DNA from: Phycisphaerales bacterium
GTDB lineage: Bacteria > Planctomycetota > Phycisphaerae > Phycisphaerales > UBA1924
Assembly: GCA_040221175.1 (NCBI GenBank)
Contig: JAVJVK010000004.1
Location: forward strand, 310,001-374,000
Reading direction: 5' to 3'
Length of the DNA stretch: 64,000 bases
The notes beneath the pieces were generated by a model that was not told the origin of the DNA, did not search any database, and saw nothing but the letters and a program-made list of their open reading frames with translations. Positions 38,907 through 45,706 of this stretch are shown here, piece by piece. The position numbers were made by a program, and so were the translations under genes. Position 1 is the stretch's first letter; each line of letters begins with the position of its first letter.

Positions 38907-40346
38907 TCAGCCGCCGCAGCCAGCGTCGAAGGCGTTCTGGTAGGCCAGGAAATCGAAGATGGTCAGCGAGCCATCGCCGTCGAAGTCGGCCGCCAGGTCG
39001 CCCGCGTCGAAGAGGTTCTGGAAGCCCAGGAAGTCGAAGATCGTCAGCAGGCAGTCGCCGTCGATGTCCGGGCGGCACACATCGATGCTCAAGGCATGGA
39101 GGGCCCCCACGTCCGGGTTGCCAGCGATCGGGTCGCCCGCATCGTCGGCCGGAGCCCCGGCGAACAGGCGGAGGCCCGTGGGGCTCTCGTAGAGGGCCAC
39201 GGTTGCCCCGAACTGTGCAAACGTCACCGGGTTGCTCGGACGGATGATGGAGGTCTGGACCGGATTGGCCGGGTCGGAGATGTCGAAGCTGTAGGCGGTG
39301 CCGGCCAGGGTGGTCTCGCCCGAGAGGGCGCCCACAAGCAGGACGTCGGGCGTGAGCGATACAGAAACACCAAAGTCGCTCGCGCTGAGCGTGTCCGTCG
39401 CGGTGACCTTGGACAATTGGACGGGGTTGGCGCGATCCGAGATGTCGAAGAGGTAGACCGAGCCGTCGCTGCCGTCGGGGTTGTTGGTCTTCGCGCTCAC
39501 GGCCGCGAGCGCCACGTCGCCTTCGATCAGCAGTTCGACCTGGTAGCCGAACTGCACGCCCGCGGAAGCGTCGGCGGCGACGAGCTTGGCGACTTCCTGG
39601 CCGGTCTCGATGTTGAAGAGGTACGCCGAACCCGAACTGGCGCCGGCGTCGTCGTTGCCCGGCGCGCCGATGAGGGCGTAGCCGGTTTCGCCCGCGCCGC
39701 CGCCTCCGCCGTCGATCGAAACCGACCGGCCGAAACGGTCGACGGCCGACGCGTCCGAGGCCGTGAGCTTGAACCGTTCCACGGCATCCAGGCCCACGAT
39801 CTCGAAGACGTACACGGCCCCGGTCGAGCTGGCTTTGTCCGAAGCGCCGATCACGGCGCGATCGAAGTCGATGTCGACCGAACCGCCAAACAGGTCCAGG
39901 CCCCGGCCGTCGCTGGCGGTGAGCTTGTCGATCTGCATGCCCGTCGACCGCAGGTACAGGTAGGCGGCGCCGGCGGCGGGCCCCAGGGAGCTCTCGGCAG
40001 GCGCCCCGACGAGTGCCAGGGCGTTGTCGGCGGCCACGGAGCGGCCGAAGTCGATGCCGTCCGCGCCGTCATCGGCCGCGAGCTCGAAGAGCAACTGTGG
40101 CACGGTGGTGTTGAGGGTGTAGAGGTACGCCCGGCCGGCCCCGCTGCCCTCGTCGCCGGCCTCGGGGGCTCCGACGATACCGAAGCCGGCGGCCGCGGCG
40201 TCGAGCGAGGCTCCGAAGAGGTCCCCCGCTTGACCGGTTGACGGCGAGACCTTGGCGTCCTCGCTGCCGCACAAGGTCTGGGCGTGGGCCGTCGCGGCCA
40301 GGCCGGTGATGGCGCAGAAACACGTCGTGATTACCGTTCGATGCAC
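38907..40346 (-). CDS. Secreted beta-propeller protein with GC-type dockerin C-terminus
   Basis: The 479-residue protein has a signal peptide (MHRTVITTCFCAITGLAATA). At least six FG-GAP-like repeats follow with the pattern A.D...D.FG.SV......A..GA........G.AYLF; examples are GIDFGRSVAADNALALVGAP, VDRFGRSVSIDGGGGGAGET and ASDFGVSVSLTPDVLLVGAL. These should form a beta-propeller. The C-terminus is the Cys-bounded double repeat DIDGDCLLTIFDFLGFQNLF and [20 protein letters not shown]. The first loop has a cysteine in place of glycine (DIDGDC), which may weaken Ca2+ binding. Start is a GTG with a GGGAGAG site. A TTGCCG / TAAAAC pair 17 bases apart lies upstream (near 40396-40424, minus strand) and could be the promoter. 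Function unknown. Confidence 0.85.
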   Translation of the reverse strand: MHRTVITTCFCAITGLAATAHAQTLCGSEDAKVSPSTGQAGDLFGASLDAAAAGFGIVGAPEAGDEGSGAGRAYLYTLNTTVPQLLFELAADDGADGIDFGRSVAADNALALVGAPAESSLGPAAGAAYLYLRSTGMQIDKLTASDGRGLDLFGGSVDIDFDRAVIGASDKASSTGAVYVFEIVGLDAVERFKLTASDASAVDRFGRSVSIDGGGGGAGETGYALIGAPGNDDAGASSGSAYLFNIETGQEVAKLVAADASAGVQFGYQVELLIEGDVALAAVSAKTNNPDGSDGSVYLFDISDRANPVQLSKVTATDTLSASDFGVSVSLTPDVLLVGALSGETTLAGTAYSFDISDPANPVQTSIIRPSNPVTFAQFGATVALYESPTGLRLFAGAPADDAGDPIAGNPDVGALHALSIDVCRPDIDGDCLLTIFDFLGFQNLFDAGDLAADFDGDGSLTIFDFLAYQNAFDAGCGG

Positions 40347-40491
40347 GTCTCTCTCCCTTGCGGTGGTCTTCCTCTGGGGCGTTTTATGCTTATGCGGGAA
40401 GTCCGGCAAGTGAACGCATCGAGACGTAAGAGTTGTGATCTCTGAGCAAATCGCCTGTGTTGCCCCGTTTACCAAACTGGAGCGTGGTGGC

Positions 40492-40830
40492 TCAACTCGC
40501 CATCGCCAAGCAGGATTTCTCACAGGCCCGGCAGGACTCGGCACACTGCTGGCAATGGTCGTGGTCGTGGGCCCCGCACTGCTCGGCACACCAGGCGCAC
40601 AGGTCGGCGCAGAGGCGGCAGATCTCCGCTTGCTTGGGGCTGCGGCGGGCCATGGCGTTGGAGCAGGCGATGCAGATGGCTGCACAGTCGGCACAGCACA
40701 GCGGGCAGTCGTTGTCGCTGCCCGAGCCGATCATGGCCGAGAGGCATGCCTGGCACTCGGCGGCACACCGCTGGCACCGCTCGATGCACTGGCGGGTCTG
40801 TTCGTCGAGGTCGTTGATGGTCATGGTCAT
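40492..40830 (-). CDS. Cys-rich four-helix-bundle copper-storage protein (Csp-like, DUF326)
   Basis: The 112-residue protein contains many cysteines spaced as CxxC and CxxxC along helices: CIERCQRCAAECQAC, CPLCCADCAAICIACSNAM, ICRLCADLCAWCAEQCG, then CQQCAESCRACEKSC. This is the pattern of Csp proteins, four-helix bundles that store many Cu(I) ions in their core. There is no signal peptide, so it is of the cytosolic Csp3 kind. Two in-frame ATGs (40830 and 40824) are possible. An AAAGGGGAT site precedes the first. The gene is alone on the minus strand, back to back with the topoisomerase VI operon. Confidence 0.85.
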   Translation of the reverse strand: MTMTINDLDEQTRQCIERCQRCAAECQACLSAMIGSGSDNDCPLCCADCAAICIACSNAMARRSPKQAEICRLCADLCAWCAEQCGAHDHDHCQQCAESCRACEKSCLAMAS

Positions 40831-41009
40831 GGTGGATCCCCTTTCGTTCGCACTGTCGGTTGCGTCATGCTGCCAATGAGGGAGTGTGGCCCTGGGCCCT
40901 AATCGGCCGCTGAACGCTCCGTGAAATGGGGATCATGTTCGGGCCTATGCTGGGAAGCACGACCCCGCCAGCCCGTTTCCAGAGGCCCACAGCACCACGG
41001 AGGGTGACC

Positions 41010-42950
41010 TTGGCCGCCAGAAAGCCCGCAAGCAAGAGCCGCGCGACCGCCGAGACCATGGCGGGCAAGCAGCGGGACATCTCCGTCAGCGAGTTCTTCT
41101 CGAAGAACCGCCACCTGCTGGGCTTCGACAACCCCCGCAAGGCCCTGTTGACCACGGTCAAGGAGGCGGTCGACAACGCCCTGGACGCGTGCGAAGAGGC
41201 GGGCATCCTGCCGGACATCGAGGTGCTGATCGAGGAACTGGTGGCCCCGCCCAGCCCCAGCAAGCCCGGGCGGTATGCGGTGACCATTACCGACAACGGG
41301 CCGGGCATCGTCCGCAAGCAGGTCGAGAACATCTTCGGGCGACTGCTCTACGGCAGCAAGTTCCACCGCATGAAGATGAGCCGCGGCCAGCAGGGCATCG
41401 GCATTTCCGCCGCGGGCATGTACGGCTTGATGACCACCGGCAAGCCCATGGTCATCACCACCAAGCCCAGCAAGACCAAGCCGGCCCACCACCTCGAGCT
41501 GGCGATGGACACAACGAAGAACAAGCCCGAGGTGACCATCGACGTCGAGACCGACGACTTCCCCCCCACCTCCAACGGCACGGGCACGCGCGTGCGCATC
41601 GAGATGGAAGCCCGCTACCAGCGGGGCAAGACCAGCGTAGAGGCGTACCTCGAGCAGACCGCCATCGCCAACCCGCACGCGCAGATCACGTTCATCCCGC
41701 CCGAGAAGGCGGCGGGCGGGCCGGCGCTGGAGACCGAGGACACGTCGGTCGAGCTCTCGCACACCACCGAACTGGCCGATCGGTACATCTTCCCGCGAGC
41801 CGTCGAGGAACTGCCCCCCGAGACCGAGGAGATCAAGCCCCACCCCTACGGCGTCGAGCTTGGCAACTTCCTGCGGATGCTCAAGAGCACGAACGAGAAG
41901 CAGCTCACTGGTTTCTTCAAGAACGAGTTCAGCCGCGTGCCGCCGGCGATCGTCAAGGACATCACGTCCAAGGCGTCGGTCAAGGGTGGCAAGACGCTGA
42001 CGGGGCAGACGTACGTCAGCACCGTCGATCACGACGCGGCCGAGCGCCTGTACCGGGCGCTGCAGGACAGCAAGCTGCGGGCGCCGCCGACGGACTGCCT
42101 GGCGCCCATCGGCGTGCGGCAGATGCTCAGCGGGTTGCTCAAGGGCGTGAAGGCCGAGTTCTACGCCGCGAGCACGCGCGACCCGGCGGTCTATCGCGGC
42201 AACCCCTTCCAGATCGAGGCGGCGATCGCCTTCGGCGGCGAACTCTCGGGCGATGAGCCGGCGCGGGTGATCCGCTTTGCCAACCGCGTGCCTTTGCTGT
42301 ATCAGCAGAGCGCGTGCTCGTCGTTCAAGGCGGTGGTCGAGACGGGCTGGAAGAACTACGGCCTCAGCCAACCCCGCGGCTCGCTCCCCGTTGGACCGCT
42401 GGTGATCATGGTGCACATGGCCAGCGTGTGGGTGCCGTTCACCTCTGAGTCGAAAGAGGCGATCGCCGACTACGACGAGATCCGCAAGGAGATGCGGCTG
42501 GCGCTCCAGGAGTGCGGCCGTAAGCTGGGCACGTATCTGCGCCGCCGCCAGAAGATGAAGCGCGAGGGCCAACGCCGCGACATCTTCAGCCGCTACATCG
42601 CCGAGATCGCGCGCTCGACGGCGGCGCTGACGGGCGAGGACGAGGGTAAGTTGCTGGACGCGCTGCTCGAGCAGGCCCAGGCCCGCACGGCCATCGCCGA
42701 CGCCGAACTCGACGAGGACGGCAACTTCGTGAAGAAGGAGAAGACACCGGCGGACGACGACGGTGTGATCATTGTCGACAGCGACGCGCGGCCGTCGCAG
42801 GTGGAGGCGAAGTCGAACGGGGCTGTGGCGAAGGGGGAATCGGAGGATTCGGGCCGCGGGCTGTTTGGGGATGATGAGGAAAGCGTGCCGGTGCGGCGGA
42901 AGAAGAGTGGCAAGAAGGTCGGAAAAAAGAAGCGCGTGAGCCGGAAGTAG
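41010..42950 (+). CDS. DNA topoisomerase VI subunit B (type IIB, GHKL ATPase)
   Basis: The 646-residue protein is the ATPase subunit of topoisomerase VI, an enzyme mainly of archaea and plants. SVSEFFSKNRHLLGFDNPRK opens the domain. The GHKL motifs follow: VKEAVDNALDACEEAG (Mg-binding Asn and catalytic Glu), ITDNGPGI, GQQGIGISAAGMYG and GTGTRV. The transducer domain contains VETGWKNYGLSQPRG, where the lysine of the WKxY-type motif senses ATP. The helix-two-turn-helix region (LGNFLRMLKSTNEKQLTGFF) lies between them. A Lys-rich tail (KKSGKKVGKKKRVSRK) after an acidic segment is an extra. The start at 41010 is a TTG with GGAGG six bases upstream; an ATG at 40926 in frame has no such site. The gene is first in an operon with the A subunit, two genes on. 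Confidence 0.93.
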   Translation: MAARKPASKSRATAETMAGKQRDISVSEFFSKNRHLLGFDNPRKALLTTVKEAVDNALDACEEAGILPDIEVLIEELVAPPSPSKPGRYAVTITDNGPGIVRKQVENIFGRLLYGSKFHRMKMSRGQQGIGISAAGMYGLMTTGKPMVITTKPSKTKPAHHLELAMDTTKNKPEVTIDVETDDFPPTSNGTGTRVRIEMEARYQRGKTSVEAYLEQTAIANPHAQITFIPPEKAAGGPALETEDTSVELSHTTELADRYIFPRAVEELPPETEEIKPHPYGVELGNFLRMLKSTNEKQLTGFFKNEFSRVPPAIVKDITSKASVKGGKTLTGQTYVSTVDHDAAERLYRALQDSKLRAPPTDCLAPIGVRQMLSGLLKGVKAEFYAASTRDPAVYRGNPFQIEAAIAFGGELSGDEPARVIRFANRVPLLYQQSACSSFKAVVETGWKNYGLSQPRGSLPVGPLVIMVHMASVWVPFTSESKEAIADYDEIRKEMRLALQECGRKLGTYLRRRQKMKREGQRRDIFSRYIAEIARSTAALTGEDEGKLLDALLEQAQARTAIADAELDEDGNFVKKEKTPADDDGVIIVDSDARPSQVEAKSNGAVAKGESEDSGRGLFGDDEESVPVRRKKSGKKVGKKKRVSRK

Positions 42951-42952
42951 CG

Positions 42953-43591
42953 ATGGACGCGCCCGTCCCCAAGACCGTGACGTCCGCCGACCGCTGGGGT
43001 CAGTTCGCCGCCGAGCATCGGCTGAACCCCGAGCGCGCAGCATTGGTGTACGCCCTCCTCGATCACTTGTACGAGACGCCCAGGCGGGCGTATCACAACA
43101 TCGAGCACGTGACGCAGTGCCTCGATGCACTGGTTGAGCTTGAGGCACTCAGCACCGAGTCGCAGTTGGCGCTGTGGTTCCATGACGCGGTGTACGTTGC
43201 CGGGAGTGATGGGAACGAGCGCGCCTCAGCGGAGCTCTGTCGTACTTACGGCACGTGGCTGGGCTTCGAGAAGGCAATCCTCGACTCGGCGGCCGACGCC
43301 GTCTTTGCGACCACGCACGATGGAATGCCACGATCCGAAGTTGCCTCGAGCGTCGCGGATGCGGATCTATCAATTCTGGGAGCTGCAACCGACCGGTATC
43401 GTTCCTACGCCCGATCGATCCGTATCGAATGGTCGCACGTACCCGATTCGGACTTTAACACCGGGCGTGCGAGCCTGCTGAGAGGGTTCCTGGATCGGTC
43501 GAGCATCTATCACACCGCGCGGGGCCAAGAGTTGTACGAGGACGCCGCCCGCGAGAACCTGACCAACGAGATCGAAACACTCACCCAGTGA
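42953..43591 (+). CDS. HD-domain metal-dependent phosphohydrolase-like protein
   Basis: The 212-residue protein has an HD-type core: RAYHNIEHVTQCLDALVELE (first His), LALWFHDAVYVAGSDGNE (the HD pair) and SSVADADLSILGAATDRY (final Asp). The pattern YHNxxHxxxxL followed by AxxFHDxVY is that of predicted HD-superfamily hydrolases of about 200 residues whose substrate is unknown. It is cytoplasmic. The gene lies between the two topoisomerase VI subunit genes: 2 bases after the B stop and 9 bases before the A start. This spacing implies co-transcription. Whether the protein acts on nucleotides or on topoisomerase function cannot be told from sequence. Confidence 0.8.
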   Translation: MDAPVPKTVTSADRWGQFAAEHRLNPERAALVYALLDHLYETPRRAYHNIEHVTQCLDALVELEALSTESQLALWFHDAVYVAGSDGNERASAELCRTYGTWLGFEKAILDSAADAVFATTHDGMPRSEVASSVADADLSILGAATDRYRSYARSIRIEWSHVPDSDFNTGRASLLRGFLDRSSIYHTARGQELYEDAARENLTNEIETLTQ

Positions 43592-43600
43592 GCGAGCACC

Positions 43601-44770
43601 ATGGCCAAGAAAACCACCAAGAAAGTCCGCTCCGCCCCTCGCAAGCGCTCGGCCGAGGCCAAGGAACGCGACGCGAAGACACAGGAGTCGTTGAAGGCTC
43701 TGGCCGGCAGCGTGGCCAAGAGCGCGCTCTCGGGTGTCGAACCCACGTTCGACGTTCCCACTCGCTCGTCCAGCAACACGAGCTGGAACAAGAAGCGCGG
43801 CATCCTGCAGATGGGCGACGCCACCAGCACGCGGCAGATCTTCAACCTGGGCCAGGCGCGCAAGTTCATGCAGAGCCTGCGGCATGCCCACGGCATCAGC
43901 CGCCTCATCGACCAGGACAAGACAACGAGCCTCCGCGGCATGTTCTATACCGGGCTGGGCGACGTGCACGACGCCAAGGGCAAGAAGACCGGCGAGAAGA
44001 CGTTCGACGACCAGACCGAGAGCGACGCGATCCTCGAGGATCTCGAAGTCACGCTGGGCGCGCTCCGGGAAGAACTGCACATCTTCGCCAAGAAGCGCGG
44101 CGCGATGGTGGGCAACATCACCATCGAGGACAGCGGCGACACCATCGACTGCCGCAAGATGGGCAGCGGAGGCTACGCCATCCCGAGCATCTGCGAGCCC
44201 GACCGCGTGAAGTTCGGCAAGTGCGAGGCCGACTTCGTGCTGCACGTCGAGAAGGACACCGTGTGGCAGCGCTTCAACGAGGACCGCTTCTGGAAGACGC
44301 ACAACTGCATCCTGACCGAGGGCAGCGGCCAGCCCCCGCGCGGCGTGCGCCGCCTGCTGCACCGGCTGAACAAGGAACTCGGCCTGCCCATCATCTGCCT
44401 GCTCGATTGCGACCCCTGGGGGCATTACATCTACAGCGTTATCAAACAGGGCAGCATCTCGCTGGCCTTCGAGAGCGAGCGGCTGGCCATCCCCGAGGCG
44501 AAGTTTCTGGGCATCCGCTCGAACGACTTCGAGCGCTGCAACCTGAGCGATAGCGTGCAGATCAGCCTCAACGACCGCGACATCGCGAGAGCGAAGCAGA
44601 TCGCCGCCTACCCGTGGTTCCAGGACCACAAGGGCTGGCAGAAGGAGATCAGCAAGCTCTTGAAGAACGGCTTCAAGCTGGAGGTGGAAGCATTGATCAA
44701 CATCGATATCAGCTATGTGACCGAGACGTACGTGCCGGAGCGGTTGGAGGCGGAGGATTGGTTGGATTGA
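43601..44770 (+). CDS. DNA topoisomerase VI subunit A (Spo11-like)
   Basis: The 389-residue protein is the DNA-cleaving subunit. The winged-helix 5Y-CAP domain shows TSLRGMFYTG, with the likely catalytic tyrosine Y116 (archaeal enzymes usually have YY here; F115 replaces the first). The Toprim domain carries LHVEKDTVWQRF with E217 and CLLDCDPWGHYIYS with D269 and D271. Together with subunit B it makes double-strand breaks, passes a second duplex and reseals, relaxing and decatenating DNA using ATP. The first 60 residues are Lys/Arg/Ser-rich and not part of the fold. It ends a three-gene cluster with 2- and 9-base gaps. No strong ribosome-binding site is visible before the ATG. Confidence 0.93.
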   Translation: MAKKTTKKVRSAPRKRSAEAKERDAKTQESLKALAGSVAKSALSGVEPTFDVPTRSSSNTSWNKKRGILQMGDATSTRQIFNLGQARKFMQSLRHAHGISRLIDQDKTTSLRGMFYTGLGDVHDAKGKKTGEKTFDDQTESDAILEDLEVTLGALREELHIFAKKRGAMVGNITIEDSGDTIDCRKMGSGGYAIPSICEPDRVKFGKCEADFVLHVEKDTVWQRFNEDRFWKTHNCILTEGSGQPPRGVRRLLHRLNKELGLPIICLLDCDPWGHYIYSVIKQGSISLAFESERLAIPEAKFLGIRSNDFERCNLSDSVQISLNDRDIARAKQIAAYPWFQDHKGWQKEISKLLKNGFKLEVEALINIDISYVTETYVPERLEAEDWLD

Positions 44771-44797: not shown

Positions 44798-45706
44798 ATG
44801 GACGAGTTGGCCGCCGCTTTCGCCGACTTCGAAGCCCTTCTTGACGATCTGCCTTCGGTTGCGACCGACGAGCGGATCAAGTCAGAGTGGCGTGAGGCGA
44901 TGGTGGTATACGGCCCGGCAGCCATCGCGGCGATCGCGAACAGCCGGGCGATCGTCGTCGACAACTCTGTCGCGACACCGTCGATGATGGCTCCCATCAT
45001 CTGGTGTTGCGGCAGGCCTGACAAGGAACGCGACACGCGTTGGGTTGGCCACTCACTGCTCGGCGTACTCGTGCATCACGATCCGTTGGCATTGGACACA
45101 CTACGGTGGATGCTCGACCGACCCGAGTGGATCCTCCGAGCGACCGCACTCGAATCACTGCGGAGCGATCATCCCGCTGCGCTCATCAGAGAGTTGGTGG
45201 ATCGAGGGCTCAATGATCGGCACCGCTTCGTACGCAGCATGGCCAGCCACATGATTTACGCCTGCGAGCAGCGGCCATTACTCCCACGCCTGCGTGAGGC
45301 GGCTTCGCGAGAAAGGCTTGATTGGTTGCGCGAGGGAATGGAAGACCTCGCCATGTTGGGCGAACGCGGGTTCAACCTGAAGCCGGATAACGAACATTGG
45401 ATCAAGGTTCAGCTTCGAGAAAACCTCGATGGACGAGTCCGCAAGGTCTGGTGGAGTGTGAAACGCGAGGTGTATGAAGAGGGCGGTATCGACCGTATCC
45501 TGCGCGAGCACTACGGCCGGCGCAATCCGAGCCCGCAACCACAGCCACTGCCACCAAAACCACCGCAGCCGATTGCGCCGTGGCTATTGTTTAGCGACCG
45601 ACCGATGGGCTACCTCTTCATGAACCGCCTCGAAGGCCCCGACGTCGTGCAAGTCCTCAAAGCACGGCATGGTGTGGAAGGCGATGGCAAATGGCCGCCT
45701 CTTTAA
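44798..45706 (+). CDS. HEAT-like helical repeat protein, unknown function
   Basis: The 302-residue protein is mainly helical with repeat-like units in the middle: HDPLALDTLRWMLDRPEWIL, RATALESLRSDHPAALIREL and RFVRSMASHMIYACEQRPLL. This resembles HEAT or armadillo-type repeats used for protein contacts. A proline run (NPSPQPQPLPPKPPQPIAP) near residue 245 links to a short C-terminal part. I do not recognise a family. It follows the topoisomerase VI A gene by 27 bases on the same strand with a GGAGG site, so it may belong to the same operon. It is convergent with the MDR oxidoreductase gene. Confidence 0.7.
   Translation: MDELAAAFADFEALLDDLPSVATDERIKSEWREAMVVYGPAAIAAIANSRAIVVDNSVATPSMMAPIIWCCGRPDKERDTRWVGHSLLGVLVHHDPLALDTLRWMLDRPEWILRATALESLRSDHPAALIRELVDRGLNDRHRFVRSMASHMIYACEQRPLLPRLREAASRERLDWLREGMEDLAMLGERGFNLKPDNEHWIKVQLRENLDGRVRKVWWSVKREVYEEGGIDRILREHYGRRNPSPQPQPLPPKPPQPIAPWLLFSDRPMGYLFMNRLEGPDVVQVLKARHGVEGDGKWPPL

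Follow-up and report, generated by a model that had tools for sequence, protein, structure and literature searches.

A topoisomerase VI operon of a Phycisphaerales bacterium that most likely stands in for topoisomerase IV and whose subunits seem to differ in ancestry

The stretch of DNA analyzed here, of 64,000 nucleotides (hereafter the window), comes from a Phycisphaerales bacterium (assembly GCA_040221175.1, contig JAVJVK010000004.1, positions 310,001 to 374,000) and contains an operon for DNA topoisomerase VI (topo VI): top6B and top6A, coding for the ATPase and the DNA-cleaving subunits, with a gene for an HD-type protein between them. We give a probability of roughly 0.7 to the joint reading that this operon encodes a working A2B2 topo VI acting in the role of topoisomerase IV (topo IV), that the enzyme has a hybrid history, and that the HD gene is cargo. 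The historical part is held somewhat less firmly: it is fairly probable that the enzyme is a natural hybrid in which A was replaced from a distant archaeal-type lineage while B was kept, that the operon crossed planctomycete orders, and that it trades places with a topo IV-like enzyme in a sister family (f3). A previous sequence-only reading of the window had placed top6B, the HD gene and top6A on one strand with gaps of 2 and 9 bases, and this arrangement was confirmed:

41010..42950, plus strand: top6B, ATPase subunit of topo VI, with a TTG start, assigned by family models and structure alignment
42953..43591, plus strand: gene of 212 codons for an HD-type putative phosphohydrolase between B and A, not a conserved operon member
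43601..44770, plus strand: top6A, DNA-cleaving subunit of class I (NF003333 / PRK04342.1-2), with Tyr116, Glu217, Asp269 and Asp271

The B protein matched the NCBIfam model PRK04184 (E 1.7e-190) and the Pfam models PF09239 (topo VI-B transducer; 5e-58) and PF02518. It was aligned to M. mazei B over residues 41-570, including the WKNYG motif and the H2TH region, for which no separate Pfam match was obtained. The GHKL boxes (AVDNALDACE, DNGPGI, SRGQQGIGISAAG and NGTGTRV) and the WKNYG lysine were covered by the alignment to solved topo VI chains, which confirmed the GHKL motifs and WKxY-type lysine previously read from the letters; B contains a GHKL ATPase, an H2TH region, a transducer and the switch lysine (WKxY). 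The top6B frame is open from 40926, and the likely start is the TTG at 41010 behind GGAGGG. This start, also proposed earlier, is well supported, since the equivalent start is likewise preceded by GGAGGG in G002 and G077, two congeners, and in G380, another member of the window's family. The A protein matched the TOP6A-Spo11 Toprim (1.8e-59) and TP6A_N (1e-14) models and scored above the cut-off of NF003333, the Pfam models found on it being PF04406, PF20768 and PF21180. Its Tyr116, Glu217 and Asp269/Asp271 lie within motifs matched to solved topo VI chains and were invariant across 16 planctomycete A sequences, bearing out the tyrosine, Toprim Glu and DxD of the sequence-only reading; A has the winged-helix domain with the tyrosine, the Toprim Glu and the DxD. 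The residues named within each motif of A and B are those which we take to be catalytic. Domain order, motifs and separate A and B genes are the same as in archaeal topo VI (M. mazei B, 2q2e; S. shibatae A, 2zbk). As a difference from it, the Pfam scan of B did not find an Ig-like C-terminal domain, in whose place there is a tail of about 100 residues, Lys-rich at its end. In G121, G167, G205, G369 and relatives of these (families f72, f81 and f98) the Top6B transducer model gave two partial matches, consistent with an insertion within the transducer; a helical bundle in the transducer, common to B subunits of the Planctomycetota-Verrucomicrobiota-Chlamydiota group, is mentioned in a 2024 paper (PMC11302465).

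Based on these motifs, on the conservation of A together with B and on the gyrase-only complement described below, we infer that the locus encodes a working A2B2 topo VI. As in the archaeal enzyme, one duplex would be cleaved, with 2-base overhangs, by the A dimer through its tyrosine and Toprim metal site, and another, on which the ATP-binding B subunits close, would be passed through. The Toprim/GHKL architecture is common to other type IIB systems, and the operon might instead encode a topo VIII, a Spo11-like nuclease or a defence nuclease. We regard this as extremely improbable, since A and B are two separate full-length proteins, each matched by topo VI models and by solved chains along most of its sequence, and since spread across the phylum and a single copy of each subunit, as in the window's genome, fit a housekeeping gene. 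Topo VIII, a type IIB enzyme mainly of mobile elements and mostly homodimeric according to a review (PMC8185306), was rejected: here the subunits have a gene each, on a contig of 1.23 Mb, and the pair is present in most of the sampled order.

In order to assign a cellular role to the enzyme, the complement of type II topoisomerases was determined. The window's genome (3.44 Mb, 20 contigs, 100% complete) has one match to PF00521, in a 928-codon frame that also holds six gyrA C-terminal repeats (PF03989), and one match to PF00986, in a GyrB-type protein. A second PF00521 protein free of gyrA repeats, by which topo IV would be recognized, was not found in this genome. Since there is no second copy of either the GyrA or the GyrB-type protein, the genome is read as having gyrase and no topo IV. 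Bacterial topo IV (ParC/ParE) would share the decatenase role proposed here for topo VI, but it is a type IIA enzyme of a different subfamily. Within the same order, all 24 genomes of families f1, f2, f4 and f5 have one PF00521 match and 23 of them have topo VI (G360 being counted by B only). All seven genomes of family f3 have two PF00521 matches and no topo VI; the second copy was free of gyrA repeats in the three that were checked, and a second GyrB/ParE-type gene was present in both genomes checked for it, so that topo IV is probably present in this sister family. The same pattern was observed in 392 sampled Planctomycetota genomes (one draw from the phylum). Among the 192 with topo VI (A or B), PF00521 was found once in 168, at least twice in 19 and not at all in five; among those without topo VI, the corresponding numbers were 91, 106 and three. 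This anti-association is strong (Fisher p 5e-21, without correction for shared ancestry), with the limit that a second PF00521 match can be a fragment; five of the 19 topo VI genomes with more than one match were checked (see below). Planctomycete topo VI of Pirellulales and of Sedimentisphaeraceae/Anaerohalosphaeraceae, as far as described by Allen and Maxwell (PMC11302465), is likewise accompanied by gyrase and not by topo IV.

Taken from gene content, topo VI is most likely the decatenase of this bacterium, replacing topo IV; it would do topo IV's job of unlinking sister chromosomes and removing positive supercoils. Topo VI has been reported as a preferential decatenase (PMC8837201), and M. 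mazei topo VI complements a temperature-sensitive parE mutant of E. coli, according to unpublished data mentioned by Allen and Maxwell (PMC11302465). Other observations speak against this role. According to a review, the S. shibatae enzyme decatenates weakly, and the three bacterial enzymes tested were faintly active (PMC8185306). One congener of the window's bacterium (G157) has gyrase but neither topo VI nor a second PF00521 match, and topo VI may therefore be dispensable or lost there, or the draft may have a gap. Furthermore, G025, whose A belongs to class II (see below), has topo VI plus a topo IV-like pair, and consequently substitution is no general rule.

G025 is one of the five checked topo VI genomes with two PF00521 matches (the others being G203, G100, G192 and G186; loci among L254-L275), in each of which one copy lacks gyrA repeats; the A class was typed in G025 only. 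In G025 and G203 the second PF00521 gene is close to a second, weak GyrB/ParE-type match. These five genomes possibly have three type II topoisomerases. In a 2024 survey such three-enzyme sets are given only for Pseudomonadota and Terrabacteria, as far as its text was available (PMC11302465).

The sequence-only reading had treated topo VI as rare in bacteria, and a reviewer's text of 2008 gave three of more than 500 bacterial genomes (PMC2478661). Rarity did not hold in this setting: the Top6A Toprim domain was found in 187/392 genomes and the Top6B transducer in 191/392. Both subunits occur in nearly the same set of genomes, being encoded and kept together. Topo VI in several planctomycete families has been published (Allen and Maxwell, 2024; PMC11302465). 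Planctomycete topo VI as such is already known, and the operon of the window joins this published kind. In what was available of that paper, the strings "planctomycet-" and "phycisphaer-" are absent from the main text, and the list in its Figure 6 has no Phycisphaerales family. A search of the open-licence literature did not find any paper pairing "phycisphaer" with "topoisomerase VI"; among titles and abstract starts of the same literature, no further topo VI in planctomycetes and nothing on exchanged subunits was found. Absence of the operon from close relatives, which had been named as a result that would speak against the reading, was observed in one of three congeners (G157, 98% complete, which lacks both subunits) and not in the other two, G002 and G077. 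At the syntenic place of G157, beside the ADH-L19-TrmD-S16 genes, no topo VI was found, gyrase being the only such enzyme detected; synteny with the window ends there between the HEAT-like gene and the ADH gene (L076, G157:C20:126000-145000).

A viral or plasmid origin was rejected. The A protein had no match in 50,697 phage records; against plasmids it matched three haloarchaeal ones at 32-35% identity, and against IMG/VR it matched a single contig (L191) that also carries a transketolase-like gene. This "viral" contig has a full class I topo VI operon near recombinase-like and transketolase-like open reading frames (ORFs; by eye), and it is probably a bacterial or integrative-element fragment. 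In another locus, L205 (G038), labelled as from outside the window's class, A and B nest inside the window's order in both quick trees, which points to either a recent transfer or a misbinned contig.

The hybrid history of the enzyme was approached by comparing the two subunits across relatives. When scored against the window's A, these relatives fell into two groups without overlap: class I, with at least about 370 bits, and class II, with at most 191. No such break between the two classes was seen in the B scores. Of the 187 genomes with A, 109 were assigned to a class by score (48 to class I and 61 to class II), and at least two PF00521 matches were found in 0/48 class I and 12/61 class II genomes. 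The sets recovered were 112 for A and 108 for B, including three A and two B sets that are not planctomycete, from two haloarchaeal plasmids and the IMG/VR contig. In a scan of named genomes, the best 80 of 568 relatives were titled planctomycetes or "uncultured bacterium", with no archaeon among them, and the named loci in these 80 whose A is most similar to that of the window are from Phycisphaeraceae or Phycisphaerales. Pairwise identities were computed for 91 bacterial rows (the window, 89 genomes and one IMG/VR contig, with minimum lengths of 340 residues for A and 480 for B), which were also used for the trees. Pairs of class I with class II share 32.9% of A (27.7-39.0, n=2040) and 52.5% of B, whereas A and B identities are 57.6% and 56.1% in pairs within class I, and 62.8% and 57.0% within class II. 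At a B identity of 50-55%, A identity was 27.7-38.3 in the mixed pairs (n=1368), with no overlap with the others (44.5-68.9 within class I, n=337; 51.3-70.2 within class II, n=403).

The affinities to archaea also differ by subunit. The window's A prefers S. shibatae over M. mazei (255 vs. 156 bits), whereas its B prefers M. mazei (458 vs. 275 bits). Identity to S. shibatae A is 41.6% for class I A, which is less close to class II A, and 35.0% for class II A. The latter is closer to M. jannaschii A (55.2%) than to class I A. The B subunits of class I and class II have similar identities to M. mazei (47.4% and 48.3%) and to Natronorubrum (41.5% and 44.2%). A KH...G..E segment after the tyrosine is present in class I A and S. 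shibatae and not in class II, M. jannaschii or M. mazei. Among the NCBIfam sub-models, 3/3 class I A proteins scored best with NF003333 and next with the model fitting S. shibatae, and 2/2 class II A proteins scored best with the one fitting M. jannaschii. From these comparisons topo VI here seems to be a hybrid in which the A subunit was exchanged, its subunits being of different ancestral sources. In the available part of the text of Allen and Maxwell (PMC11302465) no disagreement between A and B origins is stated, except for Bdellovibrio, which is called anomalous.

Phylogenetic trees of both subunits were compared as well. The A tree retained Salinibaculum from among the seven A-only sets; the six others and three B-only sets were excluded. 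In the A trees, classes I and II stood apart on long branches with archaea on both sides. In the B trees class I was a clade with 100/99 support, whose stem measured 0.10 and which lay within the radiation that also holds class II, and the branch joining all bacterial B against archaea had a support of just 89/85. Approximately unbiased tests were run with 42 bacterial rows, hand-chosen for spread. One A clade for all bacteria was rejected with S. shibatae included (p 1.6e-7). For B, a single clade of the window's order plus families f6, f7 and f8 of its own class was also rejected (p 1.8e-4), and the class I operon has therefore probably moved between planctomycete orders. The placement of the subunits in unrelated positions, which the earlier reading had named as a result that would refute it, was thus found in part: B joins the other planctomycete B sequences and A splits into two classes far apart.

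Several results, however, weigh against an exchange of A. The archaeal sampling was thin, with five rows for A and three for B. The S. shibatae row sits on a long branch, the tree program gave a warning that long branches met, and once this row was removed a single clade of bacterial A was no longer rejected (p 0.158). In the B tree, neither class I with S. shibatae (p 0.30) nor class II as one clade (p 0.41) was rejected. Since both B constraints survived, topology alone is no proof of discordance and it is the identity gap that carries the argument. Accordingly, an exchanged A is argued for more by the contrast in identities and by the sub-model scores than by the tree tests. The two B constraints would also suit two separate whole-operon transfers from archaea, with A and B moving together from euryarchaeal donors and B evolving slowly, and Allen and Maxwell, in the text available, describe two bacterial clusters in both trees, which is the published reading for bacteria (PMC11302465). 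We find this rather unlikely here, because class I and class II B are closer to each other than either is to M. mazei or Natronorubrum while in these class I-class II pairs A identity is 32.9%, and because class I B is on a short stem beside class II. A single transfer followed by acceleration of class I A, with no exchange, would explain why one bacterial A clade is tolerated once S. shibatae is removed. It would predict no extra nearness to S. shibatae, but class I A is nearer to it than class II A is (41.6% vs. 35.0%) and shares with it the KH...G..E segment that class II lacks. In addition, A is no more divergent than B within class I, and class II A joins M. jannaschii even without S. shibatae (support 97/95), so that acceleration seems improbable as the explanation.

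Under the preferred reading of an exchanged A, an operon whose B belongs to the common planctomycete lineage would have acquired a Sulfolobus-affine class I A that replaced a Methanocaldococcus-like class II A, the B subunit staying in place. The hybrid operon would then have spread among planctomycete orders, since the window's B is not grouped with the class II relatives of its class. The transfer from archaea that had been suggested from the letters was upheld as regards descent from an archaeal type and not as a single simple transfer, the A classes being about 33% identical and B forming one shallow radiation.

The order B, HD protein, A had been presented as characteristic of the operon. 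The gaps of 2 and 9 bases suggest co-transcription, and an HD phosphohydrolase might regulate or serve topo VI. This is very unlikely and largely refuted: the gene was found in one of 42 genomes of the class, namely that of the window, and in 0/3 congeners, and between B and A, G002 has another gene, of 173 codons, and G077 a third, of 128 codons. The HD gene was accordingly rejected as a topo VI partner. In 101 related loci (loci and not species, since some genomes appear twice, as in L037/L132 and L044/L183), B directly adjoins A in 63, at least 200 bases lie between them in 20, no B was found within the stretch examined in 17, and B is on the opposite strand in one. A few of the 20 wide gaps have no clear gene (in L186 the B tail continues in another frame, and L052 has no ORF). 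The inserted proteins are mostly unrelated to one another; they include DUF3800 in L039 and probably its homologue in L126, a SnoaL-like protein in L133 and a PD-(D/E)XK protein in the IMG/VR contig L191. Since the gap genes vary between loci, the B-A gap is a slot for changing cargo, and the presence of the HD gene in it is no evidence of function; this gene would be a recent, variable cargo. Varying small genes in the gap were observed in L032, L033, L038, L039, L113, L117, L120, L123, L126, L133 and L191, and membrane-like proteins are also among those between top6B and top6A.

The HD protein itself gave no Pfam or NCBIfam match, and its HN..H / HD motif was seen by eye. Its plasmid homologues are titled "NMDAR2C subunit" or "hypothetical protein", or are untitled; the first of these titles we take to be a mark of the COG4339 HD family. 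A sequence search of the PDB did not retrieve any credible relative (best E 0.7), and a single-sequence AlphaFold model, with a predicted local distance difference test score (pLDDT) of 42, was too poor for a structure search.

Downstream of top6A, at 27 bases and on the same strand, there is a further gene:

44798..45706, plus strand: HEAT-repeat-like gene (Pfam HEAT_2, E 0.0018, below cut-off)

This gene also follows A in G002 (69% identity) and G077 (61%), and it was not found by tblastn in the remaining loci searched. It has diverged to this 61-69%, whereas the window's A is 97% and its B 92-95% identical to those of the same two congeners. Long ORFs running antisense to the operon (such as 40899-43148 on the minus strand) were taken as G+C-driven frames. 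Upstream of the operon, the minus strand has a GC-type dockerin-anchored protein (38907-40694) and a small Cys-rich protein (40492-40830), whose match to the Csp1 copper storage model is far below the cut-off.

About half of the 392 Planctomycetota genomes have topo VI, and 173 of the 192 that do are without a second GyrA/ParC gene, which makes this phylum well suited to asking what topo VI can replace. If the role proposed here is true, chromosome division in most of a bacterial order relies on a decatenase of archaeal type. If the discordance between A and B holds, a type IIB enzyme can combine an ATP gate and a DNA gate from lineages that share just a third of their A residues, and topo VI subunits would be interchangeable over very large distances.

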